The notes beneath the pieces are model-generated. The model did no database searches, was not told the origin of the DNA, and was given only the letters and a program-made list of their open reading frames with translations. A program made the translations under genes and the position numbers. A DNA stretch of 64,000 nt. It comes from Liolophura sinensis. Its lineage: Eukaryota > Mollusca > Polyplacophora > Chitonida > Chitonidae. The stretch spans positions 69,905,058 to 69,969,057 of the forward strand of contig NC_088295.1 in the NCBI RefSeq assembly GCF_032854445.1, in the 5' to 3' direction. Of this stretch, positions 8,301 to 55,100 are shown one piece after another; position 1 is the stretch's first letter, and the number at the start of each line of letters is the position of its first letter.

Positions 8301-11300
8301 ACTGCGAATAGCTATATCCTCTATCAATAACACAGAGATTCGGGCTTACTGTGGTGCACGTATACTTTCTGTTAAGGCCGACTTGTGAGGTCTTTAGTGT
8401 TAGGGTGGGCTTTATAACGGGACCTAATAACAGTACTTGACAAACTCCGGTATTTTGACTTGTTATACACTTTTCTACGAGTCAAGGTGCAGGTGTGTGG
8501 TATTCAAGACGCATTAAATATAAATTTATTATGCTAAATATTAGGCATAAAATACCCCATTTGAATATATACAAATGCAAACATATAACTCTTGTTTAAT
8601 TTATTTCTTTATTTAATTGGTGTTACTTAATACGCCGTACTTAAGATTATTTCACTTATAAGACGGCGACCAGCTCTTGTTTAAAGGTAGAGGCTTATAA
8701 CAATCATAATCAACATATGCAGTTCTATCTTATTGAAATAAACAGGCCCACTGTGTTTAATAAGACATGGATATCAACTCCTCACACCCCTTGCTCATTC
8801 TTTTCTTGAGTGCTTACTATTATCACAAAACATAGTCCCAGGAATATGATTTGTTCATCATACGATAATTTAAAAATTATCTAAATCTGTTGTTCTTGTT
8901 CTCTCATTTTCTTTTACCATCTGCTCAATATGATTTCTAAAGTTAGTTTGCCTGCGTTCGTGGAAACGTGTACAAGCTTCATGGAATGAATGCATGAATA
9001 AATAATTGAGGTTTAACGCCACATTAACAATATTTCAGCCATGTGGCTGTATCCCTCTGTTGAATATGTGTGATCATTGGTATGGGGTGATTGTTGAACT
9101 TCTGTTAGATTCTAGCGGAAACAGCTTTTGTATCAAAGTGTAAGTTTGCATTTGCTTCAGAAGATAGACAGTCAATGTTTATACGAATGATGGTGTGTGT
9201 AAGACTGCAGCCAATATTTATATGAAAGTGTTATTTTGCTCAAGGATGTGTATGTGTACCAGATCACTGACTGTGATTAAGTTTGTACTAAAGTGTTAGT
9301 TGGCATAAGGTTATATGAGTGTTACAAAAGTTTGATTGAACTAACATGTTTCGAAAGTATTTGGTGGTATAAGAAAATGTGCGGTCTACAACAAGGTTGG
9401 CTATATCATTATTTAGATGTTACAGATGATTGACTGGGCCATGGTTGTTATGGACATGTTTATCAGCATGTGTCTGTAAGAGTGTGTGTTACAGATGATT
9501 GACTGGGCCATGGTTGTTACGGCCATGTTTATCAGCATGTGTCTGTAAGAGTGTGTGTTGCAGAGGATTGACTGGGCCATGGTTGTTACGGCCATGTTTA
9601 TCAGCATGTGTCTGTAAGAATGTGTGTTACAGAGGATTGACTGGGCCATGGTTGTTACGGCCATGTTTATCAGCATATGTCTGTAAGAGTGTGTGTTGCA
9701 GAGGATTGACTATGCCATGGTTGTTACGTCCATGTTTATCAGCATGTGTCTGTAAGGGTGTGTGTTACAGATGATTGACCGAGCCAGTGTTGCTATGTTC
9801 ATGTTTATCGGCATGTGTCGGTAAGAGTGTGTGTTACATAGGATTGACTGGGCCATGGCTGTTACGGCCATGTTTATCAGCATGTATCTGTAAGAGTATG
9901 TGTTACATAGGATTGACTGGGCCATGGCTGTTACGGCCATGTTTATCAGCATGTATCTGTAAGAGTATGTGTTACAGAGGATTGACTGGGCCATGGTTGT
10001 TACGGCCATGTTTATCAGCATGTGTCTGTAAGAGTGTGTGTTGCAGAGGATTTACAGGGCCATGGTTGTTACGGCCATGTTTATCAGCATGTGTCGGTTG
10101 TTATGGTCATGTTTATCGGCAAGTGTCGGTAAGAGTGTGTGTTTCAAAGGATTGACTGAGCCATGGTTGTTATGGACATGTTTATCAGCATATGTCTGTA
10201 AGAGTGTATGTTACAGAGGATTGACTGGGCCATGGTTGTTACGGCCATGTTTATCAGCATGCATCTGTAAGAGTGTGTGTTACAGATGATTGATCGGGCC
10301 AAGGTTGTTATGGTCATGTTTATCAGCATGTGTCTGTAAGAGTGTGTGTTACAGAGGATTGACTGGGCCATGTGTGTTACGGCCGTGTTTATCAGCATGT
10401 ATCTGTAAGAGTATGTGTTACAGAGGATTGATCGGGCCAGGGTTGTTATGGCCATGTTTATCAGCATATGTCTGTAAGGGTGTGTGTTGCAGAGAATTTA
10501 CCGGGCCAGTGTTGTTATGTTCATGTTTATCGGCATGTGTTGGTAAGAGTGTGTGTTACATAGGATTGACTGGGCCATGTTTGTTATGGCCATGTTTATC
10601 AGCATATGTCTGTAAGAGTGTGTGTTGCAAAGGATTTACCGGGCCAGGGTTGTTATGGTCATGTTTATCAGCATGTGTCTGTAAGAGTGTGTGTTACATA
10701 GGATTGACTGGGTCATGGTTGCTATGGCCATGTTTATCAGCATATGTCTGTGAGAGTGTGTGTTGCAGAAAACTTGCTAGGCTAGGGTTGTTGTGAACAT
10801 ATTCATCAGCATATGCTTTTGTATGTGTTACAGAGTACTGACTGGGCCAGCTTTGTTATTGCCAAGAACTGACTGTGCAAGGGCTGTTATAGTCATGTTC
10901 ATCAGCATGCCTTTATGTGTGTTTGTTGCAGAGGACTGACTGTCCAAGGGCAGTTATAGTCATGTTCATCAGCATGTCTTTATGTGTGTTTGTTACAGAG
11001 GACTGACTGTGCAAGGGCAGTTATAGTCATGTTCATCAGCATGTTTTATGTGTGTTTGTTGCAGAGAACTGACTGTGCAAGGGCAGTTATAGTCATGTTC
11101 ATCAGCATGTCTTTATGTGTGTTTGTTACAGAGGACTGACTGTGCAAGGGCAGTTATAGTCATGTTCATCAGCATGTCTTTATGTGTGTTTGTTGCAGAG
11201 GACTGACTGTGCAAGGGCAGTTATAGTCATGTTCATCAGCATGTCTTTATGTGTGTTTGTTACACGGAACTGACTGTGCCAGAGTTGTTATGGCCATGTT

Positions 11301-14300
11301 TATCAGCATTTGTTTATGTGTGTTTTATTACAGAGGGCCAGAGTTTCAGTGCGATGGGTATCAATATGTGTTTATGTGTGTTTATTACAGAGGACTGGCT
11401 GGACCAGTGCTTTGACAGCAGTAAATCGCCGGAGGATATGGAAGAGGAGAAGTACCAACCGACTTTCACGGAGGTGGACGAACTTAGTACAGGTAAAATC
11501 ATGATTGACTTTCAAGGAAGTGGACAATACAAACATGAATGACTGATGGAGCTGATGGAATAGGTGAAAACATGATTGACTAATGGAGATGGATGAAGTT
11601 AGAATAGGTACAATCATGATTGAAAAACGGGGATGGATGCACTTGGGATAGATGAAAAGATAACTGACTAACGGAGATGGATGAAGTTAGGATAGGTGAA
11701 AACATGATTGACTAATGGAGATGGACGAAGTTAGGATGGGTGATAACATGATTAACTAACGGAGATAGATGAGGCTAAGATAGATTAAAACATGACTGAT
11801 TAACGGAGATGGTTGAAGTTAGGATAGGTGAAAACATGATTGACTAATGGAGATGGATGAAGTTAGGATAGGTGAAAACATGATTGACTGATGGAGATGG
11901 ATGAGGTCAGGATAGGTGAAAACATGATTAACTAACGGAGATGGATGAGCCTAGGATAGATTAAAACATGACTGACTAACGGAGATGGTTGAAGTTAGGA
12001 TTGGTGAAAACACGATTGACTAACGGAGATGGATGAGGCTAGGATGGGTAAAACCATGATTGACTAAAGGAGATGGATGAAGTTAGGATTGGTTAAACCA
12101 TCACTGACTAATGGAGATGGATGAAGTTAGGATAGGTGAAAACATGATTAACTAACGGAGATGAATGAGGCTAGGATAGATTAAAACATGACTGACTAAC
12201 GGAGATGGTTGAAGTTAGGATAGGTGAAAACGTGACTGACTATTGGAGATGGATTAAGTTAGGATAGGTGAAAACATGATTAACTAACGGAGATGAATGA
12301 GGCTAGGATAGATTAAACATGATTAACTAACGGAGATGGATGAAGTAAGGATAGGTGAAAACATGGTTGACTAACGGAGATGGATGAGGTTAGGATGGGT
12401 GAAAACATGATTAACTAACGGAGATGGATGAAGTTAGGATTGGTGAAAACATGATTGACTAACGGAGATGGATGAGGCTAGGATTGGTAAAAACATGGTT
12501 GACTAATGGAGATGGATGAAGTTAGGATTGGTGAAAACATGATTAACTAACGGAGATGGATGAGGCTAGGATTGGTAAAAGCATGAATGACTAACGGAGA
12601 TGGATGAAGTTAGGATTGGTTAAACCATCACTGACTAACGGAGATGGATGAAGTTAGGATAAGTGAAAACATGACTGACTAACGGAGATGGATGAAGTTA
12701 GGATTGCTAAAACCATGATTGGCCATTGCGGGATGAACATGACATGGATAAAGCATGAATGACTATCACAGAGATGGTCGTAAAACCATGATTGACTTCC
12801 GTGGAATGGACGAATGTATCATAGGTAAAACCGACACTTTGTTCAAGTTATATGAACTTTGTTGTAAAACTATGACACCATGAACAAAGGGGCACAGCTT
12901 AGGATACAGTATCTCTGACATCCCATGTCAACATATAATATATTGTGGTGAAGAAGTAAAAAGAACAATACCGTTTCGTGCTTTATATTTTTTGCACAAA
13001 TCGATTAACACGGAATAGGTACTACATAGCTTTCCTTAAAACAAAGCCAACAAATTTTACTTTTGAAATCTGGGACATTGGTTATAATACTGTATTTCAT
13101 GCATAAATTTCATGCTATAAATACTGTTGCGGTCAAGTAATTTACCTGACAAAGGTCAGACATTTACTCCGGGCACACTTCGTTTCCTCACCCATGAGCT
13201 TGACATTAAACATTCTTAAGCAAGGCGTTAAACACCAGTGAAATAAATAAATAAATAAATTTAGTCAGGTATTACGTTGTTTTATGAGGTGAGGGTATGA
13301 TTACAAATGAGAGTTGTGTTTTAACCTACAGTTGACCTGAAGAGACGGAAAGCGTCCAGACCACATTCCACACCGCTGACGCTTAAATGGTAAGTTGACA
13401 ACGAGAGTTTAGCCGTTACTCATTTAACTGTTTTCAAGAGCGAACACTTTCTGGTCGAACAGGAAAACGAAATGTATCTTACTTAGTAACATATTCGATT
13501 ACTTGTCAGGGTAAAGAACTTCAGTCTTTCGACATATTAAGGGAAGCCCTTGTTCGATGTGGAGCCTACGTCGCGTGTGTGTGCGTGTGTGTATATTTTC
13601 GACGTGCGTGTCTTATTGTGACATTTTCCCGTACCTTGTCATACACGTCTATGTACTGTATGGGCCGTCTGTATTTCCCCCAGGCTGGAGGAGAACTACG
13701 AACTGGCTGAGGGGGTATGCATTCCACGCAGTACTCTGTATTACCACTACCTGGATTACTGTGAGCGCAACGACACGCAACCTGTCAACGCGGCGAGCTT
13801 TGGAAAGGTATAACTAGTTTCTTTCCATATTATTCCCCCTCCCCCCACCAACTCCCTCTCCTTTCCATTTGTTGTGTTATACTGTCCTGTATTTAATTTA
13901 TGAAGCAATAAGTAACACGATTTATAATGCTAGTAAAAGATCAGAAAAACATGTTTGTTATTAGAAGACAGATTCCATGTTGCTGCGTGAGTTACACGTG
14001 TGTACCGGTACTAGAACTACTTGCTGTTTATTTTGTTGCATATCTAATGAGTTAGAGTGACATCGTATAGGCATTTGTGGTTGTGGTTGTTTTGTTACAT
14101 TCACTCACATACAACTGAATTTTATTTCAGATAATTCGTCAGCAATTCCCACAAATAACAACTCGCAGGCTTGGCACACGAGGGCAATCAAAGTGAGTAT
14201 ATGCCAGTGGTTGTAAGATTAACACAAGGCCCACTTGTGTCCACACTTCTGTTCAGATTGACGCCTTGCTCTGAGCGAAGACTAATATCCACTGTTAAAG

Positions 14301-17300
14301 CAGTATCAACTCTGAGGATGTACTTGGTATTTAAATAACGGGTAACATTAAGGTATAACTCCTTTATTATTTAACACTCTGTGGCATAATTGTACAGTTA
14401 ATGTTCTTGTGAGATTTGTATGCATTATAGGCCTATCATTAGAGAAGCATTAAACAGCATGCATGGAAGTGCTCTTCATTAGCTTGAGGATCCACCGGAA
14501 TGTACCCACATGGCTTATATAACAACTATTTCCAACAGATATCATTATTACGGGATAGGAGTCAGAGAATCGTCCCCATATTACGACCTGGTATATTCGG
14601 CTAAAGGAGCCCAACTGTAAGTTATTGTTGAATACGGATTAAAACGCTAATTGAATAAATGAATTCAGCTGCATGTTAGTATTGCCACACAAGTAGCATA
14701 AACTGGAAGTAACGAAAGGCCCTAATATCGTATTGTAGTTGATAGGCTCTTCCCTTTAATCTGTACGATGTGAAAAAAGTTTCTCCAGACATCTGACAAA
14801 TGAATAATTCCATGATTACATTTGCCATTATTTCACTAAACTATTCGCTCTCTTTAAGATATACATCGGATCACTATGCTGTAGTTTCTATTGTTGAGAT
14901 TATGTGTTATTTATAATTTTGCTTTCTTTTAGATCTTGTGATGGTAAAAAGGACCCCGTAAAACAGGTAAATTTTACGCACAAATATGACTCACAATATT
15001 TCAACTTATACAAAAATATATATATAATTAACGGAGTATATCCTGTAATAATCCTGAACAACGTACTCCAGTGAATTACAAAAACCGTGTTCAACCCACG
15101 AGTCACACGCAGAGTTAATAACCACATTGTATTAGAAGTTGACACTTTGTACACGCAACAGAACAAACCGAAAGCCCTTTCTCCATACAGAACCGAACTC
15201 TCCAACCACTAGGTCACCATTTTAGCCCATTAAAGCTTTCATTCCTACTTAAAAGACTATAAAATTAAATTATTATCGTTTTGTACTTTAGCATATCCCT
15301 TTAAATTGTTTTAAAAATGAAAGAACCGCACTCGATACAAATTGAGAGAAATATAGATCAATAATATTTTCCATCGACAGAACTGAAATGTGTACATAAT
15401 GAATAGCTGCATGTGTGCCCAGTAATATGGTGACAATGGCAAAAGTGCTATTTAACATACTCCAGCCTGTTTTATTTTAACCGGCTTATTCAAAGAGTGT
15501 AGTGCGATGCAAATGGATATAATAGATGGTAGTAGTAGATCATATGATATCTGTTCACTTTGCTCCTCTCCCCTTCACGGAATTTCTCTGATGAAGAATA
15601 TACGTATATAGGGATTTCTAAAACCGTATAACCACAAAAAAGAACTCAGATCCAATTCCAACCATCAGTTTTTCAACTAGATTCTACTATAACTGTTATT
15701 CAACAAGTAAATGTACTTTATCCCTTCCTGCAGATTGTGGCCTATTCTCCACGCTCGAAGCTAGGGACACTTCTTCCAGATTTCCCGGAACTGAAAGACA
15801 TCAAACTTCCAGCTAACATAGAAGAGTCTAAGGTAAGTGAAGAGCTAACATCTAAAATATCTGAAATGCGTCTCAGTATTGACTCAGCCAGACATATAGA
15901 GTTCATTTGGTACGGAAGGGCACGGTTATAGGGAAAATCGTGCCTTTTGCCAAGCTACACCAATAGCATAAAAAAGTGTTACAAAGAGAAGGTATAGCTT
16001 TGTCATACCTGATGATTGTATAATATATGTGGAAATGTTGAGTCTCAACGATTTCGGTCGAACGCAACTTGTACATGATGGAAAACTGACCAGCAGTTTA
16101 AAACAGGTTTTACCAGTTACATGTCACCAACTTTATACTCAGACGCTTTTACTGCGTTATGACAAGATGTCTTTACATTCTTAATGCACAATTCGCACTG
16201 TTTTGCAGGTGGTCACTTTCCTGATGATGTACCGTGCCCACTGCCAGAGAATTCTCGACACTGTCATTAGGGCCAACTTTGACGAGGTAAGAAAACCAGA
16301 ATCTTTTAGTAGTTTTACCGGGCTATTAGTTTTTGTCACAATTTTTTTTTTTGCCTTTACTTTAAAGAACAATTCCACTTTACGCTGGAATGAGACTTAA
16401 CGAGTGAAATACAGATGTACCGTTGTGAATAAAAACTGAGGATTTACACCTTCTGGTATAGCACACATTCTAGAGCTGAAAAATGACAACTGCAGTCGTC
16501 TGGTGACCTCTGTCATGTACATAATCAAAAGCAATTGCATCATGCAGTATTTTGTTTGAGACGATTTCTTTTTACATCCACTTTAGCCTTGCGTCAACAG
16601 GTTATAGTGATTTTTCAATGCCTTTCATTGTAGCCATGTTTGTTGTGGATATTTCAGGTGCAGAGCTTCTTGCTTCACTTCTGGCAAGGCATGCCCCAGC
16701 ACATTATCCCCATCCTGGACAGTCAGACGATTGCCACCCTTGTCGGGGTCTGCGACTCGGTTTTGTACAAAGCCATCGCGTCTGTTCTCATGCCCACGGT
16801 ATTCCAGCCTCTACCAGACAGGTTCGTCTTCAGTCAGGCGCAAGTCAATGGCTGTTTGGACATTTCTTTGAGCTTTCAAATAATCTCTGTATCTCCGTGT
16901 CTGGAATAAACCATACCTCGTCGTTTTGGAAATATAAACATCAGTATGCTTACCTGCTGAAGATCAAAAACTGAAACATGTATATCTTAAATGAGCATTT
17001 ATGGGTTAACGATACATCCTCAGCATTCCAGCCAAATCTTGCAAACATGGGTCACCAGTTTTCATTATAAATATATTTATTTATTTTATTTTTTTTTTAT
17101 TTATTTATTTATTTGTGTTTAAGGCCATACTAATGAACAACTTGATATATAAATAACATTATTATAATCTGCATGAACACACAGGTATACATGATTCCAT
17201 GATGCTGTTACCTTCCAGTTTAACCCAAGTTATTAGACGATTTGCAAAGCAGTTAGACGAATGGCTGAGAACAGCTTTACAAGGGCTTCCAGCAAAACTC

Positions 17301-20300
17301 ATAAAAATCAAGTTTGACCGTAAGTACCTTCCTATTACTGATTTGTTTATTTCTGAGAAATACTGAACTGCCAAATGACATATTTAAAGCCATGTTGAAT
17401 TAAGTGGTTACGCTTGACTGAAGGCAAAATTGGCTTTCTTCAACAGTTGCTCGTCGCTTCGCCCAAGTACTTCGTCGTCAGACATCATTAAACCATCTAT
17501 GTGTCGCTGCCCGTTCAGTCATCCATAATGCGGAAATTACGTCACAGATGCTTGACGACTGGTTGAATATTGACCTATCAAGTATCGTTAAACAGACTCT
17601 TTACACCATGGACCAGTACAGCGAAAAGGACCATCAAATAATATTTAACTGTGAGTGAAATTATGTCATTAAGAACTAATGCAGAGTGACCTTATTATGC
17701 AATCTTACATTCATTTATCCCCGTATTCAGCAATGCCAGTAGGTACTTTTCAGAACAATTATTAATACTATTTATTTAAAAACGTAAACCTGCGTATATA
17801 CAGATCTACAGAGAGAATTCAGGAGATTAGAAAGACCGATTCATACTTGTTTTATGCCGTTATACATGTAGTTACATAAACCGTCTGAACAGAGATTCCA
17901 AATCTGGCTTTCCGAAGTCTTTGTAAGATTCTTTTTGACTTTCATATACAGTATGTAAAGAGCTGGAGCAGCTGTTTGAAGACCAAGCACCCATCGAGTC
18001 GTACATCGCATGGCTGGACTCTATGGTAGACCGATGTGTAGCCAGTGTAAGCATAGAAGATTTAATGGTATACAACCAATATGTGTAAAGAAACAAGGCC
18101 TCTCTAATCAACCCGCGGAAGAAGCTGAGCACAGAGAACAAACTATACAAGTTCACACTAGCAAAAATCAATTTTTTTTATAATATGTGAATTGATGTCA
18201 AATACACAGTTTTTGTGCATTGTAAATTACCAACACTTACTTACTCACTTATAAAAGACTATCCTATTCATTCGCTCAAGAAGAAATTCCAGTTAGGATT
18301 ATCATTTTCTATGTTATACTCCCTCTTTCAGTGAGCACTTGATCTTGAATCTTTACTTCAGTACTTTGAAAAGCCTTTCACGTCTTGCTCTGGTCTTAAT
18401 TTCAGCCCAGCAATAGACGACCTGGTATCTTACGCAAACTGGCTCGGCAGTTTCTTTTAATGTGGTCGTGTTTCGGTACCCGAGTCATACGCGATATGAC
18501 CTTATACAGTGCCCCCAGTTTCGGTAAGTGGTGTATTTTCTATGTAAAAATATAATCTTGAGTGTGACATGAAATCTCAGCCATGTAAAGAAATAAATCA
18601 ATTTTGACGATGCGTAAGTGGGAATGTCAGCCAGCAGTCTGCGGATGATCATAGGTTTTCCCCGGGTTCTGGCCCGTTTCCTCTCACTGTGATGCTACCC
18701 GCTGTCGCATAAGTGAAATATTCTTGAGTACGGAGTAAAACATCAATTAAATAAATAAATATTCGACGATGTGATTTTTATGAAGAGCGGAAGAGGAAAT
18801 GTAACAGAAAGCAAGAGGATGGTCTATTTCTATTACATTAATAAATTCTTTCAATAACACATGGACAGCACCAAATAAATCACCAGAGAAGACAAAGACA
18901 GAACTGTGTTATATAGTATTGGGGGTTTGTTTCATATGATGATAATTGCGTTAGTATAAGAATTCTTGTCTTGTAATGGTTTGTTCTACCCTTATACTTG
19001 AATTTAAATTAGCACCCGAAACAATTAAGAATAAAAAAAATAATAAAAAGTAAATTAATAACCCAATAACTATCAAGATTCTTTTGATATTGTGTATATA
19101 CGAAACGTCCCGGAACAAACATCAGTAATCCATATATATGTTATAAGATACTCACTCAATCCTGGCTGCCTGAATTCACAGACATTCAAGATCTTTAGTT
19201 TTTATCGAAAGGCACAAACTAAACAGAATTATTAACAATCTTGATGTTGAAAACACCATTTTGTTCAAATAGAAGACAATAATCGTCAATACAGTTCATT
19301 ATGTGGACCCGCTTTTAACCCTTCAGACGGGATATCATTAGAATGACAGGCCATACAGTTGAGGTCTCTTAAGAAGCAGTCCTTTGCACGTGTTCCGAGC
19401 CGTGATTGACAGGCCCCCGGTGGAGAAATCAAAGGGGGTCAGCGGGTATTAATCGCCATTATTCAAATTAAGAGAAACCACGCATGCTCTATGTTTGATC
19501 AATGACAAGGTTAAGGTGCACTGCAGAAGATTTCGCGGTCAACGAGGAATTGAATAAGGGCTCTGAACAACAAAGGGGCCCGGACATTGTCATATGCATG
19601 AGTGTGAAAGATGCCTTAATGAAAGATCCTCTCGTAAAGGAAAACAACTTGTCATTTGTTGGAAGCAAAATCGACAAGGACGCGTTTATCCGTTGCTTGA
19701 TAACCTTGTGTATGGGGGTCTACATCTATAGGCTTTTATTTCATCCGTGTGCTAAATTTATCGGAATAGCCGCTCCTGTCTGGTTTATATTGTTCCAAAT
19801 TTTGTTTGCAGGGTTGTGTTTATTTAGATGTACTGCACATGAATCGTGCATTGCTATCAATTGTATTAAGACTACATCAGTAAAAATGACATTTGGGTAT
19901 CTTCATCACCTTATCGGTGATATTGAGACAGTCAGTGTTGACATCATTATTAATAACCTGACTGTATGTTATCAGGCTCATTTCACCTGCTTCACCTTAT
20001 GTTTGATGAGTACGTCCTGTACCTGGTGGAAAATCTCCATAGTCAGGAGAGGACACGGGAGTACCTTGCCGTCATCAAAGGGGAGGAATGTCCAGGTAAT
20101 GTATCCTCTTATACGCTGAATTGTCAGTAGAATACTTAACTACGTTCAGTTAACCATGTTAGCTATGCAGTGTTGATGCTTTGGTAGCCTTTTGCATGAT
20201 GATGGCCTGGTGATTTGATTTATTTGATTTGGTTTGATTTAACCTTCCTATGCAGTTTCGCGTCATGTGATAACTTCACATTCGCGTGTTACAGACGCAA

Positions 20301-25494: not shown

Positions 25495-25567
25495 AGAGCA
25501 GGTGATAAGGACGGTTGTTAAAGGTACAGCCATTCAGAATTAAAGTAACCATATCATATAAGTCATA

Positions 25568-27233: not shown

Positions 27234-27860
27234 GACTTCTGCATGGCATAGTTGAGTCACAAATGAAGATGAGGATTCTCAGCTTTATAGCAAGAGATGG
27301 TCCAGGAAGGCAGCCCATGCCTGTACTATCTTCACATAAACAATCTGCTCTCAGCATTAGCTCACCAGGTCCTGCAGAGCACACTGGATAGCAGGAAACC
27401 AGCAAAACCTCCAAAGTTCTTAACAAACATAAGTAAACATAACACTCGGCCACACTTGATCTCTATGTGCTTTGAATCAACTACTATGGATCATTTAAAA
27501 AAAAATGAAAGGTGACAGCATTTGTTGATCAACTTTTAACAAATCTGTTTCATGGACTGCATGGGTGCATGACTGCATCAGTGAAAGGTTTTATCACATT
27601 TATACAGTCCAGAAAATAGTCATTCTGTGTTAAATTACCATCAACTAATCAACAAAGAACATATACCCCATGTATACAGAAACTAACAAGAATCCTACAC
27701 AATCTTGTACATGTACCAGTAACTGAAGATCACTTGTTGAACACACTTAAAAAAGACAAAATCTGTGTGTCCTTCTACCCGAATGAAACATAGTGAGTTG
27801 AGTCAAATGATAATAAACTAAAGCTCTTAAAATGAAATGTCTATATGAGAATTCCATGGA

Positions 27861-32964: not shown

Positions 32965-33275
32965 AGTGTGAGTGAGTGAGTGCTTGGGGTTTAACGTCGT
33001 ACTTAACAATTTTTCAGCCATATGACGACGAAGGGATCCTTAGATGGCATGTAATGTGCTTCCTTGTTGCAGGATGGATTTCCACTGCTCTTTTATCTAG
33101 TGCTGCTTCCCTAAGATGCCTTACCGACAGCCTCAACACATTTGACAAGGGCAGGTAACCGTATCAGGTTTTTTAAATGGAATGTGCTCTGATGTCGATT
33201 TCGGGCCATTACTGACCAAACAAAATTTCGTCAAACCTAATCTCAGAGCAATCTCACTATCTTGTCAAACATTTA
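32965..33275 (+). repeat. GTTTAACG-family dispersed repeat
   Basis: Starts GTGAGTGAGTGAGTGCTTGG GGTTTAACGTCGTACTTAAC, then TTCAGCCATATGACGACGAA, and ends in the block shared with 30890-31020. I associate this sequence type with molluscan genomes, from memory. A 60-codon open frame within it is not a gene. Confidence 0.75.
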
Positions 33276-34059: not shown

Positions 34060-34350
34060 TAGGTAAGTACCCATCCATATTTGATCCAATTAAGATCAAC
34101 CTGTCCCCTGATTTGAAATTCCCAAAATTGCCGTTGTCTTCTGTCTGTTATGATTCTGGATGCAGTGGTTATTATGGTTCCCAGTTTTCATGACTGCCCA
34201 GGAACCCAGATGGTGTATATGATAGGCGGCCATCTTTGTGAACTTCAAGCAAGCGGAGAAGTTGAACTCACTGAAATATGGATGGATATCGATAGCTCGG
34301 GATTTTTTCTCTCTGGTGGTCTCAAATCCTAAAGATTTTATTGGAGTAAC
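34060..34350. repeat. Second copy of the fold-back repeat family
   Basis: GTTGTCTTCTGTCTGTTATG ATTCTGGATGCAGTGGTTAT at 34133-34172 matches the 30041-30083 arm. GAAATATGGATGGATATCGA near 34273 matches 30285-30305. CCATCCATATTTGATCC at 34073-34089 is an inverted match to 34265-34285. It is therefore a shorter, more decayed fold-back copy. Confidence 0.65.
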
Positions 34351-34559
34351 TGAAGCTAGTAAAAGACTGTTTTCCAAAATTTTCTGACACTTCTTTGAGG
34401 GATGAATGGGACCCAGTCATGACTATGTAAGTGTGAGTACAAATATAAAAACAGCCTAGCAAAGAAATCGGCGTTGAACTTTTTATATTGGGTAAGATCT
34501 AGTTCATTGTTGAAAGGACATCTTTAGTAAAATTCCTGTATTGGAACAGAGCCTTCTGG

Positions 34560-35372
34560 CGAGAAGGTTGGCTGAACAGAAATAGGTGCCCAAACTTATG
34601 TATCATGGGCAAAAGGCAGGTGAATTATATTTGCTTATGACTTTGCAGTCTTCTGCACAATTTCATTTTTTGTCTCATTCCTTGCCATTTACGAGTGGTA
34701 ATTCCGTGGTATCTTGCTTTCATGCCCTACTCATAACTGTCACGACAGCAACATTTTACAGCAAGTCAACTCACTGCCAAAGTGTCAATTTCTTCTCATT
34801 TTAAAAGCGTTTGGTGCTTCATACTTACATACATCACTTTAGAATAACCTGTTAAAACCAGATTTTGAGAAGATTAGGCTACACATAAGTGACCGTATCA
34901 CAAAAACTTTTGCGTGAACATTTACCAATGCAAGCAGTCAAAAAGAGCACATTTCAGTTTGTGTTATGGTCACATGTGTAGCTGACCCCTCTGAAATTCA
35001 TTCTTTATGCCCTGCTGTCTGTCATTCCGATCTTTATGCTGGCCCATAAAGCATTCAGTAAGGTAGCTTAAAGCTGTGAAAACCTTATGTTAGTGAGACA
35101 TATCACTGATTATTTCGGGAGTCTGTGACTTCACACAGGTTTAGGCAAGATAAGGTGGGAGCTGTCCCAAACTAACTCAGCTTAAAGACATGATTTTACA
35201 GTAGCTCCTAATGGCGCTGTTGAACCAGCAGAGCCGGCTATGAAAGATGTAGGCCTATGTTTAGGCCTGGTTCTAGCAAATATTGTAAATCATGCCTTGT
35301 GTTGTCCAACCTGTGTGATGTAAAATAAATTTGTATGACTTCAGAACAAATAAAGATGCAAAAAAAAAAAAA
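34560..35372 (+). other. Possible retrocopy or 3' end with A-tract
   Basis: AAATAAATTTGTATGACTTC and then CAAATAAAGATGC are followed directly by a run of about 15 A ending at 35371. Two polyadenylation-type signals close to a genomic A-tract are typical of a retroposed transcript. I recognised no coding sequence upstream, and the 5' limit given is arbitrary. A chance A-rich tract remains possible. Confidence 0.4.
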
Positions 35373-35444
35373 AAGAGAGGTATAGTGAGTAGGTTAAACA
35401 TTTGATTCATTGTTGTAATATCAATTATAATATCAATTATAAGC

Positions 35445-35709
35445 GGGGCCTCCGTGGCTCAGTCGGTTAAAGCGCTAGCGCAGCGTAATGACCCAGGAGT
35501 CTCTCACCAATGCGGTCGCTGTGAGCTCAAGTCCACCTCATGCTGGCGGCCGTACGTGAGAAGGTCTGTCAGCAACCTGCGGATGGTCGTGGGTTTCCCC
35601 CGGGCTCTGCCCGGTTTCCACCCACCATAATGCTGACCGCCGTCGTATAAGTGAAATATTCTTGAGTACGGCGTAAAACACCAATCAAAAAAAAAAAAAA
35701 AAAAAAAAA
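35445..35709 (+). repeat. Full-length tRNA-derived SINE with 13-bp TSD
   Basis: The head GGGGCCTCCGTGGCTCAGTC GGTTAAAGCGC resembles a Pol III A box, and GTGAGCTCAAGTCC resembles a B box. A conserved body follows (GCAACCTGCGGATGGTCGTG), then TAAGTGAAATATTCTTGAGT, ACGGCGTAAAACACCAATCA and a poly-A tail. The direct repeat ATCAATTATAAGC lies on both sides (35432-35444 and 35710-35722). This is the best reference copy of the family here, about 1 kb upstream of the ATM start. Confidence 0.95.
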
Positions 35710-40100: not shown

Positions 40101-43100
40101 ATTGTGTGCTGAACATCACTGAGCTGTGCTGAAAAAGCAGGGACATGCCCGCCTTCAAATATTGTCCAAAGCGTGATCATGGTCTTATTTTATTTTCCGG
40201 CAATGTGTATTTTTTTGAATTTAACAATAATGTAAGTATGCCACCCTGAGTAGTTCGGAGCTCTTGTGACACCGCTGATATCCTTGTACATTTTTCTGGT
40301 TTAATCATGGAGTATTATATGAATATACGTGTTCATAGTTTTTTGGTAGTCAAGAGTGGAATGCTTTTAAGAAACTGTCGCAATTCACCAGGTACTTGGC
40401 GAACTGTATACTTCTTGTTGTTTCTAGTGCACAAGGATCCACATCTATTGCATATGCGCCGATACATGCACATACCGGCCCTACTGGCTTTAACCCCGGC
40501 ATCGCTGTCCCTGACAGCTATATTTATTTTTACATTTCTGGGTTATTTTTCAGGAGGTGAAAGGTTAAAATGTTTCAGTGTGATGAATCACATCATACAG
40601 GTGCTGAAAGACCCGTTCACATGTCAGGCCTATGGCGCAGACTACAGCAGTCTGCTCCTCAAGAATATACTGTGTGTGAGGAAATATTCCACAGAGCTGA
40701 CCAGTAAAATGTGGCAGGGTAAGTGTGTATTCCGTGTATGTGTGTGAAAAAATATGCCACAGAGCTGACCAGTAAAATGTGGTAGGGTAAGTGTGTATTC
40801 CGTGTATGTGTGTGAGATGATGCCACAGAGCTGAGCAGTAAAATGTGGTAGGGTAAGTGTGTATTCCGTGTGTGTGTGTGAGACGATGCCACAGAGCTGA
40901 CTAGTAAAATGTGGCAGGGTAAGTGTGTATTCCGTGTGTGTGTGTGAGACGATGCCACAGAGCTGACTAGTAAAATGTGGCAGGGTAAGTGTGTATTCCG
41001 TGTGTGTGTGTGAGACGATGCCACAGAGCTGACTAGTAAAATGTGGTAGGGTAAGTGTGTATTCCGTGTGTGTGTGTGAGACGATGCCACAGAGCTGACC
41101 AGTAAAATGTGGCAGGGTAAGTGTGTATTCCGTGTGTGTGTGTGTGAGACGATGCCACAGAGCTGACTAGTAAAATGTGGCAGGGTAAGTGTGTATTCCG
41201 TGTGTGTGTGTGAGACGATGCCACAGAGCTGACTAGTAAAATGTGGCAGGGTAAGTGTGTATTCCGTGTGTGTGTGTGAGACGATGCCACAGAGCTGACT
41301 AGTAAAATGTGGTAGGGTAAGTGTGTATTCCGTGTATGTGTGTGAGACGATGCCACAGAGCTGAGCAGTAAAATGTGGTAGGGTAAGTGTGTATTCCGTG
41401 TATGTGTGTGAGATGATGCCACAGAGCTGACTAGTAAAATGTGGCAGGGTAAGTGTGTATTCCGTGTATGTGTGTGAGACGATGCCACAGAGCTGACTAG
41501 TAAAATGTGGTAGGGTAAGTGTGTATTCCGTGTGTGTGTGTGGGACGATGCCACAGAGCTGACTAGTAAAATGTGGTAGGGTAAGTGTGTATTCCGTGTG
41601 TGTGTGTGAGACAATGCCACAGAGCTGAGCAGTAAAATGTGGCAGGGTAAGTGAGTATTCCGTGTATGTGTGTGAGACGATGCCACAGAGCTGAGCAGTA
41701 AAATGTGGTAGGGTCAGTGTGTATTCCGTGTATGTGTGTGAGATGATGCCACAGAGCTGACTTGTAAAATGTGGCAGGGTAAGTGTGTATTCCGTGTGTG
41801 TGTGTGAGATGATGCCACAGAGCTGACTAGTAAAATGTGGCAGGGTAAGTGTGTATTCCGTGTATGTGTGTGAGATGATGCCACAGAGCTGACTAGTAAA
41901 ATGTGGCAGGGTAAGTGTGTATTCCGTGTATGTGTGTGAGATGATGCCACAGAGCTGACTAGTAAAATGTGGCAGGGTAAGTGTGTATTCCGTGTATGTG
42001 TGTGAGACGATGCCACAGAGCTGACCAGTAAAATGTGGTAGGGTAAGTGTGTACTCCGTGTATGTGTGTGAGACGATGCCACAGAGCTGAGCAGTAAAAT
42101 GTGGCAGGGTAAGTGTGTATTCCGTGTGTGTGTGTGAGACGATGCCACAGAGCTGACTAGTAAAATGTGGTAGGGTAAGTGAGTATTCCGTGTATGTGTG
42201 TGAGACGATGCCACAGAGCTGAGCAGTAAAATGTGGCAGGGTAAGTGTGTATTCCGTGTATGTGTGTGAGGAAATCTGGTACAGAGCTGACCAGTAAAAT
42301 TTGACAAGGTGAGTCTATTCAGATGTATGTGTGAGGAAGTGTGCAACACAGGGGACCAGTTGTGTGTGATAGGGTGAGTCTGTATTCAAGTTTGTGTGTG
42401 AGGAAGTGTGCAATACAGTGGACCAGTAGAGTGTGACAGGGTGAGTCTGTATTCAGATGTGTGTGTGGGGAAGTGTGCAATACAGTGGACCAGTAGAGTG
42501 TGACAAGGTGAGTCTGTATTCAGATGTGTGTGTGAGGAAAGTGCAACACAGTGGTCCAGTAGAGTGTGACTGGGTGAGTCTGTATTCAGATGTGTGTGTG
42601 AGGAAGTGTGCAACACAGTGGTCCAGTAGAGTGTGACAGGGTGAGTCTGTATTCAGATGTGTGTGTGAGGAAGTGTGCAACGCAGTGGTCCAGTAGAGTG
42701 TGACAGGGTTAGTCTGTATTCTGATGTGTGTGTGAGGAAGTGTGCAACACAGTGGTCCAGTAGAGTGTGACAGGGTGAGTCTGTATTCAGATGTGTGTGT
42801 GAGGAAGTGTGCAACACAGTGGTCCAGTAGAGTGTGACAGGGTGAGTCTGTATTCAGATGTGTGTGTGAGGAAGTGTGCAATACAGTGGACCAGTACAGT
42901 GTGACAAGGTGAGTCTGTATTCAGATGTGTGTGTGTGAGGAAGTGTGCAACACAGTGGTCCAGTAGAGTGTGACAGGGTGAGTCTGTATTCAGATGTGTG
43001 TGTGAGGAAGTGTGCAATACAGTGGACCAGTAGAGTGTGACAGGGTGAGTCTGTATTCAAGCGTGCATGAGGAAATGTGTTACAGAACATGGTCTGAATT

Positions 43101-46100: not shown

Positions 46101-49100
46101 GGTGGGTGATACCAAAGATATTTACTGTAGCATTAGGTGGTGGTAAACCTAACTGTAAACTGAGTTAAAGAAATTCTGTCCAATTAGCCTCACAGATTGT
46201 GTTGATTGTGGATATGATCTATGTCATAGAGAGTTATTGAAAACTTTGCATTGGTCAAAGTTCTTGAAAATACTTGAAGTTTGTTAATAATCTAAAAATA
46301 GTCTTAAATATTTTATTTTCCCTGGAAGTACTTGATTTTTCTATGTTGATTAACATTTTGCTTTATGTTTGAAATAGGTAGATAACAAATATACCTCAGT
46401 AATATCTATTAATCTCACATGAATTGTTGTAATTTAAGTGATTTGTCCCAGAAAGTAATGGCAAACACAGGATATTATTTCCTTGGTTGTTTTTTATTCT
46501 ATACCTGGGCCCTGTTGACAAAGAGAATGTATCTTTCATCAGACTTAACTGTCATGACAACACATATTGTAGAGATATATTGCCTGGCCTGATATTAAGA
46601 TAGAAAAAAACTACAGATAGTGTTATTTCAGCTCTCTAGATGTACCTCATAGCCAAAGATTTTTAAAGTTCTGTTACTAAAAATGACTTACATGTGAGTT
46701 GAGTTGTTTGTCAGCTCAACCCGTAAATTGTACAATGCCAAAGGGATGTTGGTTTTCATTAGGTTACAGTTACTGAGTCGTCTTCTGAGGAAACACCCTG
46801 AGAGTCTTCCCTGGGAGGAAGTGTCATCTCTGCTCCAGACCCTTATCCCTATACTCACTGAATGTAAACGGTATGTGAGGTACAAAGTAGATGTTATGAC
46901 ATACATGACATACATCATGTCTTATTGTGAACAAAAAGTGCTTGCTAAAAGCGTTTTCGGCATGTTGCCTAGTGCTCATGATAAAGTTTCAAAGAGAGAA
47001 CAGAGACTTTTTATAAAAGTTAGCAACAGAATGAAAACCATCAAGCATAACTGTATTGAGTTCTTGACAGAAATCTGAGAACACAACCTTGTTAAATATC
47101 ACATGTAACAATCAGTCTTGCAAGAGTTGTTATTGATATCTACATGTTTGTACATGTAGACCCTGATTGAAAAACTGACAGATAGTTTTGGTAACCATTT
47201 TCCTGGCCTGATATTAATACCCGTGTATTTTCCTTTCCCTAAATTAAAGCTGTTTAGCAGGTAGAATTAAATGTATTCTCTAGTTGTGGAAATGATATTT
47301 TGTTACACAGGAGTGAAGTAGTGAGCTACAGCTTGATGTCTGTGGAGGCATTAGTTCTGGCTGTGGGCGCCCGGGCTGACTGGGCACACTGCAGACAAGA
47401 CTCTGACCTCACCCCCTGGCACAAGGTCTGGGCAGCAGTCCTTAGGTAGGTAGTCATCCAATACATGTGTCTACAGATATTTAGGTTAATTCATCAATGT
47501 TAATTTCGTCAAGAGTTCTCTCTGTCTGAAAAAGATTTCTCAATCTCATATGGGTAAAAAGTTGAGAATTCTTGGAGTTACGAATATTCATGAGGTTAGA
47601 CCAGGATTTGTATTATTTTCAATTAGACTCAGTGAAGAGATCTGATGGAAATGACAGTTTTCTGAAGACATCATCATTAAAGGACAAATGAACATTATTG
47701 TTTTTATGTCTATGTTATTAACGAGAAACAAACATGTTTCATTAACAAAGCACCACACATGGAGTATTGAAAAGGTCAAAAAAAATAAATAGATAAAAGA
47801 AGAAAACTGATGCAAAGCAATGATTTCCTTGGAGAAGAGTACAACAGTAAAATATATTTTATCCATTTTCTTGACAGATTGATAAGTCTCCATCATTCAG
47901 CAAAGGAAAGCTTCTCAGTTATGTCTGCTCTTATACAAAATCAGCTGATAACACCAAAGAAGGACATGTGGAATTTATTTTTTTGTAACATTTGTACTCC
48001 GACTCAGGAAAGTTTGGAATTCTTAATGAACTATCTGAGTTCCCATGACCTTCCTGACAGTTACCAACCCTCTGTGCTGGGTATTACCCAACCTAATGAC
48101 AATGGGGCCTTCGTCCTGAGAAAGCAGCTTTGTGATTGGCTCTTGGTCAGCCATTCAGATCTAAACGACCAATCAACCAGAGAATATATCGCTTCCAACC
48201 AGCGGCTAATTGCTGAGATTTTATCTGCATTGGTATTGAGAGATTGTCGCAAAGGATTTCAACAGAGTGTTAAAAAATTGAAGGGAAATTCTCATGCTAC
48301 CTTTCGTGAAAATACGGAGCTGCAAGACCTTTATCTGGCATACACATTTAATGATAGGCCAGAGTTTGAACCAGCTTTTGGCACATCTGACTCCTCCTGT
48401 GGGCCGACTCTGGCCAGTATTGGTCAGCTGTATGAGTACATAGAGAAGCTGATCAAGTCAGATGTCCAATCTCTGGTGGAGATCACAGAGCATCCGGTAA
48501 GCTGACTCAAGTTTCCATGGTACATTTCATCTTTGTATTTGTAGCTAATTTTTTGTAACGTATATTTTTGATTTTACAATTAAAGTTTTAAGTCACGAGG
48601 AGCTGAAAAGAGAATTGAATGTTTAGACATTATGGTCTGAAATTTCAACAACATATTGTACATATTTAATAAGATTAATTAAACAGCTGTTGAAATGTTA
48701 ACGGAAATTTTTTAGACTGTGATATGAAATTTCTGCAAATACTCAATAGATTTAATAGGATAAATTTTCGTTGGAAGGTGAATTAGTACATATTCCTTGA
48801 GCCCCCACCCACCAACTTTTCCCCAAAAATTGGTCTGGCATGCTCTAGAACATTGGTGTGATACAGTATGAAGTGATATTTATGTATTATGGTGCACTGA
48901 ACAGATAATGACCCTGGAGTGGATGACCCGCAGGTGCACCATAGGACTGAAATTTGTACAGAGTCTTTTACAGCTGAAGGTGCTTACTGAGGAGAAAGTG
49001 TTACAAAACCCCATACTGGAAGCTGTCAAGGTATAGATTTCTGTGAACCTGAATACTGAGTTTAAATTACAATGTGGACAGAGTAGTTGAAAACATCTGT

Positions 49101-52100
49101 CGTGGAGGCTGTAAAAATATAGTTAGATTCAGATTTCTGTGAACCTGAATATTCATTTGAGTTTGAATTACAATGTGGAAAAGTGTGTACAAAGTGCTGT
49201 CGTGGAGGCTGTCAAGGTACAGATAAATTCAGATTTCTCAGAACCTCAATGTTGAGTTTGAATTACAGTGTGGAGTGAGCAGTTACACAGTACTATTGTG
49301 GAGGCTCTAAAGTTATAGCTATATTCAGATTTTTGTGAACCAAAATATTGAGTGTGAATTACAATGTGGACTAAGCAGTTACGAAATGCTGTCGTGGAGG
49401 CTGTAAAGTTATAGCTACTGTAGATTCAGATTTTTGTGAACCTTAATTTTTGAGTGTGAATTACAATGTGGACTTAACAGTTACAAAGTACTATTACAAA
49501 AGAGCTATATTTACATTTTTGGGCAGAATTTTTTCAGAATATTGAGTATGAATTACAATGTGGACTGAGCCTTTATGTAGTGCTGTTGTGGAGGCTCTCA
49601 GTGTACAGCTATATTCACATTTTTGGAACTGGAATATTGAGTGTGCATTATAATGTGGACTGAGCAGTTACAAAGTGCTGTCGTGGAGGCTAATGTATAG
49701 CTAGATTCAGATTTCTGGGAATGTGAATATTGACAGAGAGTTACCGTGGATTCTTGCTTTTAATGCTTTTAAAACTGAACATGCTCGAGACCTTATTTTG
49801 CATGATAAATGGGTGAAGTCATAAGTGAAATGTTTGGTGTTATGAGGTGGGCAGGAAACCTGTCAAGAAATTTCACTCCATTTTGCTGTGATTGAAATAT
49901 GTCTTGTGTTTGTTTCATGTGTTGTTACAGGTGCTGTTGAAGAACCTGTCCTTACACTTGTCTGATGTGGTAAAGAAGAGTGGTATTGGTGCTGTGCACA
50001 CTGTATTACAGGCCCTAGAAGAGATGGCTGGAGTTTGCACAGATGATCCCAGCCAAATTGAGGTCATGTCACAGCTCCTACACACTGTCACCCCAGCCAG
50101 GCTTATAGATACATTACTGGAGGAGGCCATGAAAGTATGATATTCAGTTGACAAACCATAGAACAATATTGGCCTGACCAGAATATGTTTTTACCACTCA
50201 CAAATGTTATATTTGTCTCAGTACTTTTTTTTCATGAATTATATAAAACTTTCATGAACATGTTACGGGTTTTCCAGGTGTGAGGGTATATAGATTATGT
50301 TAGATATTAGGCATTGCATTGAAGAAGGCTCTATTTATCAGAATAATGGATATTTAAAATATGTGAAAGTCCCAAGTGCAAATTGTTCTTCTTGAGGTAG
50401 AGATCTATATTTAGAGTCTTACATGCATGCAGTGTTTACATGCATGTAACTTACATACATAATAATTTTTTGCAACTTATACTATTGCAGATATATGTGT
50501 TTGTTTCTAGTCATCATTGATAAGACAGCACACTGCCAGTAGACAGGATTCCTCTCGTAGCTCCACCAGTAGAATGGCTAGTGTTGTGTCGGATGACTTT
50601 GACCTGGGCTTTGACATATCTTCCACAAACACTGAAGAACTAGGCATGGACAGTTCTCCACCGGATCTAGAGGAGTCTGCTGATAAGTCTAAAGGTTTCA
50701 TAAACTTCCATTCAGTTCATTGCAAATAGTTTTATAGACCATATTCAATATTCAGGGGAGAACACTGTGTTAAGGTACATGCATGCAATTTCTCTGTTAA
50801 TAGGTGAAAATGGTTTTTAGGCTATATTGAACCTTGTTGCTCACACATAGATTAAAAGAATATTCTCCCCTGAATAGGTGAATAAATTCTATAAAATGCA
50901 ACTAAAGTTTCATTATTTCAGGCCATCTCCATAGAGGATAATCATAGTGCTTCAGTGTGACATACATAAATGTTGAGCTTATTTTGAAAACTTGAAATTT
51001 TTATTTGTTTCTTTGATAAATTTCTTGTTGTTCACAGATGTTCTAGACATGTGCCTAATTTATATGTAAAATCAAAACTGATATAAAGAATAGTGATGAT
51101 ATCACAGAATAAAGATGAGATTAGGAAAGCATATCTCATCAGTCTGGAAGTTGTAATGGATTTTTATTGTATGTGTCTTTATTATGACAGTTTATTGTGC
51201 CAGTGTGGTGTCTGCGGATGCTCTCAGTGACCTCCAGCAGGCTCAAGTTCAGGTTATTCGAGTGTTGGTCAGGTGGTGCCATAGCAACCCCACCAGTTTT
51301 ACTATCAGAGAAAAACTGGAAGACCTTCTTGATGACCCCAAGTTTGACCCAGCCAGAGCTGTTGACGTACATATTGTGAGTACTTATAACCATGTACAGA
51401 TAACTGCATTCAGAATAAAAATGAGCATGTCTTATTGATAATTTTGTCATTTTATTATGAGAAATAACATGCAGGAAGATGTGGAATTAATATTTTGCAG
51501 TAAAGCCTGAAGATAATATTTTGCAGTAAAATCTGTAAATCAAAGGAATATTAGTTGGGTCCTGTATTTGCTTTTGATTAGTGACATATGTTCACTGTTA
51601 ATGGTATGCTTAGTAATATCAGAGGTATGGTTTTGTGCAGTGGAATTGTTGTATTGTTTAGGTGAGGGAGATTGTCCGTGGGTACACGAGCCAGAATCAG
51701 CTGACGGGTGACAACTTACAGAAGATACTTGATGCTTTGAGGTAAGAGTTATAATTCCACGATAATTTCCAAACAGAAATCATGCTATTGCTAAAACATA
51801 CATTACATATTTGCTGGTGAATAGACTTTGGTAGCACCCGGATTTGATATTTTCAGCTACTTGTCAAACTCTGGTACAAAGTCACCTGCCTGAACACAGA
51901 ATTACCTGTCCCATTTGTAAGTAGTTCTGAAAATCACTGAAGTGAGTGGTACATGTAGCATGAAAATGCCTAATTATTTAAGAAACCTACATGCAAATTA
52001 ATTTCAGTACTTGCATATATTGCTTTAATTACCATCATAATGCTTTAAGCTTCAGACTTCTCCTTTTATGTACTGATCTTCATTATTTTTCATGTGGCTT

Positions 52101-55100
52101 TATCTTAAGTCTTATTGTTTTTACGTAGTATTTATTCTCCGCTCAGTGGTGTTTGAGATAACTAGTGAAAAACTCCCACCTGATGGTTTGAAAACACAGA
52201 ACTTTTGGGAGTAGTCACAAAGTCTAGTATTTGGAATAAGGTATAATAGATATAATATTATTAAAAAAACTGAATGAAGCATTAACAAACTAGCGTATTG
52301 AAACCTGTACTCAGACTTTCGTTCAAGGTTTGACTTCATTATATATTCCAGCAGCGTATTCCAGTGTATGTTATAACCTGTTCAAACTTACCATGTCATA
52401 GTTGGTGTTTCTTGTGTTTCAGACAAGTCGTAGTTGGTGTTTCTAGTGTTTCAGACAAGTTGTAGTTGGTGTTTCTTGTGTTTCAGACAAGTCGTAATTG
52501 GTGTTTCTTGTGTTTCAGACAAGTCGTAGTTGGTGTTTCTAGTGTTTCAGACAAGTTGTAGTTGGTGTTTCTTGTGTTTCAGGCAAGTTGTAGTTGGTGT
52601 TTCTTGTGTTTCAGACAAGTCGTAATTGGTGTTTCTTGTGTTTCAGACAAGTTGTTGTTGATGTTTCTTGAGCTTCAGACAAGTCGTAGTTGGTGTTTCT
52701 TGTGTTTCAGACAAGTTGTAGTTGGTGTTTATTGTGTTTCAGACAAGTCATAGTTGGTGTTCCTTGTGTTTCAGAAAAGTCGTTGTTGGTGTTTCTTGAG
52801 TTACAGTCAAGTCGTAGTTGGTGTTTCTTGTGTTTCAGACATTGTATCTGGTGTTTATTGTGTTTCAGACATATGGCTAAATGTCATCGGCATGACCAGG
52901 AGGTGTTTGTGGTTGTGTTAGACATGCTGTCAGTTCTCATACCTCCACTGTCACATGAGGACTGTGCACTAGATAAGGAGGTGAAGGCAGAGTGTGTCAC
53001 CATCATCCTCAGGCTCATCTCAGCTTACTGGTGAGTCTGCAATGTTTTACTGATGCAGTGCTGGTATACTGTTTCAAAGCAAGGGGACAGTGACCATTTA
53101 TCTTTTATTTCCAGTAAGATAAATGGGAAAATTCTCTGCAAGGCTTTTTGGTTTTTAAGGAATAATGATCCCTGTTTACAGTTCTATTGGTTCTGAGAGA
53201 CAATTGAAAATTTTATTTTTTTATTTCTTACTGTTTAGGAAAATACAGGAAAGAGGAGATGCAATGCACAAAGTCAGACTTGCCCTTGCTAAATGTTTGC
53301 AAGCTTTTATTCAAGTAAGTCAGTAGATAATTTCAAACATGTGTTAATATGAAAAATATTTGGTGCTAGGCTTTGAATAATTTGATTAGACCTTCTGTGG
53401 GAATACAGAAGAGATGATTCTTGTTCATGTAGATATGGACTTTTAGGTATGTTGCATGCAGTGTTGCGGTATAGTAACTAATATTGTTTCAAGCATAGTT
53501 ACTACACTGCTACCACTAATCTAAAAGCTTATGTCCATAAGAATCATGTTAAATGCTAAATGCTATTCAAAGATATATCTTCTGTGAGAATACAGTTGCA
53601 TTTGTTTATTCGCCTGTTTACCTTGATTTTGTTATATATATATATATATATATTCTAACTCAAGGTATTCAAGGTCGTCAGAATACGTTCTGGAGTGAGA
53701 TAAAACATTGTATAGTATTCATGTAATCTACACTCGTAATCAGTGACTGTTACATTGACAGAGTGGCCTGTGTGCCGAGTTCCCGGTGCTGTGTAACACG
53801 TCTGGGGGGTCAGGGGATGAGACAGAGATGCGTGTGTGGGAGGCTTTCCTCTTCCTTGTTAGTGACAACTCCCTACTGGTCAGGTGGTACACGGCCCAGG
53901 CTCTCACGTGGTGAGCTGCTCAGTTCTTGATGTCGTTTTGGAGCAAACCCTGGACATACTCCTATAAGTACTGTAGTAATTATTGTGAACTGAACTTGTG
54001 AATATTGTGATAGATTGGAAATTGACAGTAGAACTTTTTCATTAATTCACTGCACTGATTCCATTACTTGCGGTGGCAATGTGTCCCCTCCTACATTTGC
54101 CCTGTTAAGAAGTCACCATCATTACCCATTGTTTCCTGTCTTCCTCCATATACAGGTACATGTGTGTATATTTATCTCTCTGGCTTATAACTTATACAGT
54201 TATGTATATATATATATATATATATACAATATATGTAAGTGAAGTTGTGTCTTCCTTTTTTTCAGTCTTTTCAACCAGAGAAGTAAACAAGATGTTTTGC
54301 CAACTCCACACGATGTGTTTGCCAAAATGTATGAATTTGTCCAGGACACTTTATCACTAGAGGTAATCATGAAGTTGTCGGGTCCTTACGCTTTTGTGTG
54401 CTTAGGAATGATATACACACAGATGTGATCTGTATGCTTGACACCCTTCTGTGTACAGAACACATGTGCGTAATTGGTCGTGGCTGAGTGGTTAATTTGC
54501 TTTCCTTTCAGTCGCCAGGTATCTCAAGACATGGTTTCAAACTAAGTCTCAGCAGAGAATTTTCAAGATACCTCTGCTTTTGTTGTTTTCAAAGCCATGA
54601 TGCCAGTATCCCAAAGCAGTCTTTGGTATACTGCAATGAAAAGTTCTGTTAAAAAGTTCTTAAATAACATCATTTTAGCTTGTCTAAATGTTGACTTGGA
54701 ATACACCATTAAACTTAGTTAATACTCACATAGGGTCTTTACATTTCTTAAATAAAAAGTACACTCACTATAAATGGTGGTGGTTTGCAAATCTGTGTAT
54801 CTAAAGCACCTCTATTAAAATGCTCCCAATGTTTGTTTGCTTTGGTAATTAAGTGCGTAGCTCTGTAAGATTAGTGATAGAAATTGACTGATTTACCATT
54901 TCTTTTGACCCAGAGTAAGTTGAACGTGGATGAGCAGGCAGATGAGGCTCTGAATCGTACCTCTAGCTTGCTGAAGGCGCTGGTCAATGTTGCCTGTTAC
55001 AGTCCTGTGTGTGAGAAGAAAGCTGTCTTCACCTGTGTTCAGCTCATTAAAGAGAAGAACTTTAGTGTGGAACTAGTTAGAAAGGTAGGATTAACCAAGA

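Follow-up and report, generated by a model that had tools for sequence, protein, structure and literature searches.

Tandem arrays built on exon-intron junctions in RFX4, ATM and dynein genes of a chiton, and their likeness to amphioxus mirages

Arrays and gene models at the RFX4 and ATM locus

We examined a 64-kb window of the genome of the chiton Liolophura sinensis (C1:69905058-69969057; “window” means this whole stretch, and the genome searched comprised 609,464,459 bases in 632 contigs), where genes matching human RFX4 and ATM carry five tandem arrays at their exon-intron junctions (Table 1). An earlier note, made from the letters of the window alone, had placed five arrays with periods of 69, 43, 66, 96 and 31 bp each against a splice junction of one of these genes. 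Tandem Repeats Finder (TRF) located all five with nearly the same periods, and direct reading of the sequence showed every one to abut or cross an exon edge of RFX4 or ATM; in the gene models, the copy adjacent to the exon is the modelled splice site, also as the note had it.

Gene models were prepared by tblastn with human RFX4 and ATM sequences, followed by a splice-aware exon predictor hinted by the matches. Collinear matches extended over 13340-20085 for RFX4 and over 36520-63887 for ATM. The predicted exons at the arrays are RFX4 11391-11492, two ATM exons with their ends at 40718 and 49030, and a third that begins at 52869. The first of the ATM exons falls within a tblastn match (E 4.7e-10), the sole strong protein match among these four; the RFX4 exon was matched at E 8.9. 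ATM exons 48905-49030 and 52869-53030 had no tblastn match of their own and are supported by splice signals, an open frame and their location between matched exons. Both are probably similar to human ATM.

Table 1. Junction arrays of the window and the RFX4 exon flanked by two of them.
Feature	Coordinates	Strand	TRF interval (period, bp)	Splice dinucleotide in copies	Basis and remarks
Acceptor-type array, 69/67 bp unit, about 28 copies	9418..11420	+	9418-11336, two rows (69/67)	AG in 20 of 28 walked	TRF to 11336, exon start and last diverged copy by direct reading; array runs through the modelled 3' splice site into the start of RFX4 exon 2 (exon number from the earlier note)
RFX4 exon 2 (model; the earlier note's number), array on each side	11391..11492	+			Predictor: acceptor 6.4, donor 6.2; phase compatible with next exon 13332-13389
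Donor-type array, 44 bp unit including about 31 nt of exon end	11462..12721	+	11560-12721 (44)	GT in 21 of 28, but none scores above 3	TRF from 11560, start read from sequence; copied donors decayed
Donor-type array of ATM exon ending 40718, unit of 66 bp with about 46 exon and 20 intron nt	40673..43059	+	40689-43059 (66)	GT in 35 of 35; 25 score at least as high as modelled donor	TRF from 40689; occupies nearly the entire intron
Donor-type array of ATM exon 48905-49030, 96 bp unit, diverged	48990..49733	+	49035-49733 (96)	GT in 0 of 7 walked	TRF from 49035
Acceptor-type array, 32 bp unit with about 3 exon nt, ending at acceptor of ATM exon 52869-53030	52395..52871	+	52395-52871 (32)	AG in 14 of 14; 10 score at least as high as modelled acceptor	TRF

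Two further larger arrays of the window, 1217-1665 and 2929-3288, lie outside the gene models; the latter comprises 7.2 copies of a 50 bp unit with 96% matches.

Exon edges within the repeat units

We extended the sample to dynein heavy chain genes, whose exons were found with the PF08393 profile (86 matches). The sample consisted of 30 loci of about 3.2 kb, three 50-kb stretches designated D1 (C1), D2 (C11) and D3 (C2), and a 10-kb piece on C12, giving with the window a total of 278,016 scanned bases; four loci in C1:14948219-14952751 were left out. D2 was picked for its widely spaced exons and D3 owing to a two-copy 58 bp donor duplication already seen there, and the C12 piece was taken before its arrays were known. 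Unhinted gene prediction gave many false short exons and was replaced by protein-hinted prediction; the predictor nevertheless missed D3 exons 34820-34929 and from about 5937, which were found by reading frames, and called copies of short interspersed nuclear elements (SINEs) as exons, which were removed by hand. SINE-like pieces near window position 58827 were mistaken for exons in the same manner as in D2, D3 and C12.

Whether the repeat units contain exon sequence was assessed by aligning the 60 exon bases at each junction into the adjoining array, in a set of 19 with units of 26-125 bp, of which 5 lie in the window and 14 elsewhere, and comparing the score with those of 166-167 control exon flanks. 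For 12 of the 19 the array's own exon edge aligned better than all controls; eight of these are of donor type and four of acceptor type, and both 5' and 3' boundaries are therefore affected. In the window, junctions 11492, 40718 and 49030, all donors, outscored all 167 controls with scores of 20, 41 and 21; the top control for 40718 scored 40, and is presumably the same exon with its edge shifted by one base. The array upstream of the RFX4 exon (acceptor 11391) probably holds exon sequence, with 4 of 167 controls equal or better. At ATM acceptor 52869 the 60-base alignment gave no exon-side signal (6 of 167 controls were as good), and the same was found for five other arrays of the 19, at the C1 locus at 2803 and at D3 5937, 28500, 30357 and 38756. 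The view of the earlier note that exon sequence is clear in four of the five window units is thus borne out for the three donor arrays, is probable for 11391, and fails at 52869, where the unit contains the acceptor with some 3 bases of exon.

An assay independent of TRF agreed. A 30-mer from each junction (18 exon and 12 intron bases, up to 7 mismatches) was sought in the adjoining intron for 484 junctions of 245 exons, a non-random set which includes predicted exons without protein support. Copies were found in the own intron for 15 of the 484 junction 30-mers (14 of the 245 exons), as against none of 458 exon-interior 30-mers, a control that is partly dependent because a unit reaching 48-78 nt into the exon must be long.

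The pattern extends beyond the window, as had been supposed, and recurs in dynein genes. Of 34 intronic arrays outside the window, 8 have units that include 15 nt or more of exon, and a further 5 extend to the splice site; the remaining 21 neither span a junction nor lie at a splice site. In the C12 piece, exon sequence amounts to 37 nt in a 92 bp acceptor array and to at least 60 nt in an 83 bp donor array. D2 and D3 hold many arrays, and TRF found none of 80 bp or more in the 50 kb of D1. In D3, 18,244 of the 42,154 intron bases belong to arrays of one kind or another, and so arrays matter for intron length.

Several observations accompany these samples. The D1 gene (C1:27056000-27105999), with no array of 80 bp or more, has 56 predicted exons, 29 of them paralogue-supported, and a median intron of 328 bp; in contrast, arrays occupy 14 of 40 introns in D3. 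The C12 donor array (C12:3990441 on) runs into an assembly gap, and its observed length is a lower bound. A tRNA-like SINE has inserted in a junction array on C11, splitting it in two (D2 oriented 46880-47155), and a 34 bp repeat of about 105 copies fills part of a single intron of the same stretch away from the junction (D2 oriented 32057-35607). At C1:14949719-14951562, dynein heavy chain matches lie within 1.8 kb, with a 563 aa open frame and several in-frame stops, which perhaps represents an intron-poor or retrocopied dynein.

Copies within an array were then compared. Unit queries from ATM (two units of the 66 bp array) and RFX4 (two of the five window units in all; best candidates scored) matched their own locus only in the genome-wide search. 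These two units being private to their loci, local tandem duplication is indicated, and a dispersed or mobile element was dropped as an explanation, the two searched units having no copies at unrelated loci. In 15 of 17 arrays the interior copies were closer to one another than the authentic copy at the junction was to any of them (P 0.0003), whereas the far-end copy was not set apart from the interior copies (10 of 17, P 0.22). The splice dinucleotide, GT or AG, was retained in 246 of 358 copies from 18 arrays (D3_27_A and D3_34_D walked out of register and were counted as 0 kept, and D3_2_D, with one copy, was skipped); the homogenisation test reused these walks, including D3_27_A and D3_34_D. 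Retention ranged from 22 of 22 copies in the D3 48013 array to decayed sites in the acceptor array at C1:95580461, and the largest array walked had up to 60 copies. Intact decoy sites number 35 donors in ATM and 22 acceptors in one dynein gene.

The copied splice sites were not specially uniform: uniformity among copies was 0.79 for the splice dinucleotide and 0.81 for the rest of the unit, and purifying selection on the copied sites was rejected on that ground. The splice site equalled the authentic copy at 0.70, compared with 0.57 for an average place, which we read as constraint on the authentic copy rather than on the decoys.

Arrays at different stages were present, from the two-copy 58 bp donor duplication and single diverged copies 102 and 203 bases from a junction to long arrays. 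Read by eye, the two-copy duplication lies between imperfect direct repeats, TTAACAAAG in the exon and TTAACCAAG in the intron, while the two breakpoints at C1:95580461 share the word ACACAG; these two cases are suggestive of microhomology or slippage at the birth of a duplication.

Tolerance, junction preference and the rival explanations

We consider it likely that these arrays are mirages of the kind described in amphioxus, that is, local tandem duplications straddling a junction, tolerated since the coding sequence stays intact, and by-products of a high duplication rate. Such an array would start from local tandem duplication of a short stretch across an exon-intron junction. The exon-proximal copy would retain an entire exon together with its splice site, leaving the protein unchanged; because that copy keeps the coding sequence intact, junction duplications can survive where exon-breaking ones would not. 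Later copies would multiply and homogenise in the intron, which would lengthen, and additional exon-edge copies, often with a working-looking GT or AG, would remain there as decoys while the spliceosome presumably uses the exon-proximal site. The arrays would then be neutral by-products without a job; the duplication mechanism, the normal splicing and the neutrality are what we infer.

The earlier note had proposed that splice junctions are preferred starting points for duplication, or else that only copies starting there are tolerated. We examined if tolerance would suffice by computing, from unit length and from intron length less the array, the chance that a random unit straddles a junction, for the 34 non-window arrays. 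The intron table and array classes were entered by hand. The count omits arrays below 80 bp, the two window arrays beyond the gene models (at 1217 and 2929), a D2 array, from 48693 on, that leaves the fetched sequence in an unsupported model, and D3 2209-2335 (the reason D3 was chosen); three junction duplications known from the TRF-free assay alone (D3 13293, C4 3860, C12 5243) also stand outside it. D2 27589-28269 and 47156-47424 were each merged with a neighbour as one array, array C4_b, seen in one scan but absent from a later one, was entered as non-junction, 300 bp was substituted where the intron end was unknown (C12_D, RFX4_A), and for D2 262-972 and D3 451-546 the limit of the fetched sequence was taken as the intron start. 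Arrays with exon sequence in the unit numbered 8 against 4.15 expected (P 0.036), and arrays enclosing a splice site 13 against 5.59 expected (P 0.00084). For the five window arrays, a reader-selected and hence biased set, the corresponding values were 4 against 1.34 and 5 against 1.71.

These counts support the view that junctions are true hotspots of duplication, perhaps through co-transcriptional structure, a paused polymerase or repeated AG/GT words, and all five window arrays agree with it, albeit as a selected set. The excess depends upon the intron length assumed for the ancestor, however. With ancestral introns of 500 bp the expectations rise to 5.1 and 6.8 (P 0.12 and 0.0086); with 300 bp they are 7.8 and 10.5 (P 0.54 and 0.21) and the excess is gone; with 150 bp they are 12.9 and 17.6, and the observed numbers become a deficit. 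Median array-free introns are 328 bp in D1, 446 bp in the window, 520 bp in D3 and 1165 bp in D2, many of these introns being not far from 300 bp. Since the excess vanishes with 300 bp ancestral introns, tolerance of junction copies, the second arm of the earlier proposal, may be enough; the first arm was overstated, a junction preference being possible and modest at most. Splice words counted genome-wide in triple tandem lean the same way as the hotspot view: the donor word AGGTAAGT gave 626 matches against 468 for the reversed word (singles 26,576 and 29,085) and the acceptor word TTTNCAGG gave 1,754 against 828 (singles 127,347 and 74,151), a per-occurrence excess of 1.46-fold and 1.23-fold. 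The matches are concentrated in single arrays, though (by eye, about 20 donor-word and about 15 control-word arrays among the matches listed, about 100 each), so that no firm excess follows from them, and the count is insensitive, AGGTAAGT being present in few of the observed donor arrays, and serves only as a bound. At C1:1904043-1905286, AGGTAAGT recurs every 126 bases, apparently a tandem array beyond the period range of the search pattern. The GC skew of junction arrays likewise lends the hotspot view no help, as it takes both signs with no constant direction; in the window all five arrays have a G-rich coding strand, and a cause in R-loops or strand composition was dropped because the sign is inconsistent outside the window. 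Taken by itself we regard the hotspot explanation as unlikely. A wider form of it, in which junctions are genuine hotspots with roughly double the geometric expectation and arrays born there, with their dozens of intact decoys, are a main engine of intron growth, is doubtful but deserves slightly more credit; if it is true, correct splicing must depend on choosing the exon-proximal copy, and the genome offers a natural experiment on splice-site choice.

Two other explanations were weighed against the mirage reading. Intronic minisatellites might be so abundant that some meet exon edges by coincidence, as the share of D3 intron sequence in arrays and the 21 arrays away from junctions would allow; this leaves unexplained the exon sequence in the units, and for the 12 arrays scoring beyond all controls it is refuted, but it stays viable for the arrays with 0-7 exon bases, and overall we think it improbable. 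Retention for a function, with the repeated sites regulating splicing or intron removal (recursive splicing, kinetic delay), would fit the overall retention of GT or AG and the several arrays whose copies mostly equal the modelled site in score. It fits poorly with splice sites no more uniform than the remaining unit and with their decay in the RFX4 donor array and at C1:95580461, and it is very improbable.

Mirages formed under tolerance also have evidence to contend with. The six arrays without exon-side signal reach the splice site yet contain only 0-7 exon bases. Units are indeed longer in exon-containing arrays than in those lying mid-intron (mean 82 bp against 53 bp, P 0.008, window included), as geometry predicts, longer units straddling junctions more often; arrays merely reaching the splice site have a mean unit of 37.5 bp, opposite to this trend, and by our own estimate units ending so near a splice site look commoner than uniform breakpoints would give. 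With the observed intron lengths, junction hits are about twice the tolerance-only expectation, which leaves room for a real preference. The exon edges, finally, are modelled from homology and splice signals, and splicing at them is taken to be normal.

Comparison with known systems

The earlier note knew of no described class with this property; the amphioxus mirages are the same kind, so that the kind itself is already known, and what is new is the host, a mollusc, the spread over several genes and the large number of decoy splice sites that are intact. In the open-licence literature, the scope of our search (subscription papers and the mirage-naming paper fall outside it), we found no report of mirages in molluscs. 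The near-identical splice sites beside one real site permit a direct test of the spliceosome's exon-proximal choice, and they carry a warning for annotation, as the predictor called decoy exons inside junction arrays.

More distant parallels exist. Internal tandem repeats at exon-intron boundaries occur in human segmental duplications, according to PMC2812944, and share with the chiton arrays minisatellite-length units at boundaries that alter introns; as there described, they yield novel introns and alternative transcripts in recent paralogues, whereas the chiton arrays are known from genomic DNA. Tandem arrays (Zhuo et al. 2007) and internal duplication (Gao and Lynch 2009), both as cited in PMC3087553, have been described as sources of introns; they have in common with our cases the tandem duplication of splice or proto-splice sites, but concern the gain of introns.

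The closest match is with amphioxus, in which mirages have been described in Adh3, the globins BflGb6 and BflGb9, troponin C and PGBD5, the last (with imperfect repeats) and troponin C being given as further cases in PMC3902484. In amphioxus, regular splicing is seemingly undisturbed, many copies keep AG or GT, and lengths are unstable, with polymorphism and somatic change. The chiton case differs in its host and in the number of exons with junction copies, and the likeness is one of anatomy. Amphioxus units of about 10-160 bp encompass those found here, and in both animals the unit crosses the exon-intron boundary and includes exon sequence (clearly in 12 of 19 arrays here, probably in one, not in six), both 5' and 3' boundaries are affected, and many but not all copies keep AG or GT. 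In amphioxus the interior copies are homogenised and the boundary copies excluded, which the chiton arrays match at the exon end and not at the far end. The comparison would add a mollusc to the cephalochordates as hosts of mirages and, beside the single cases described there, would put junction copies at 14 of 245 exons of a non-random sample; it suggests that intron growth through mirages may be general and that they may supply new splice sites.

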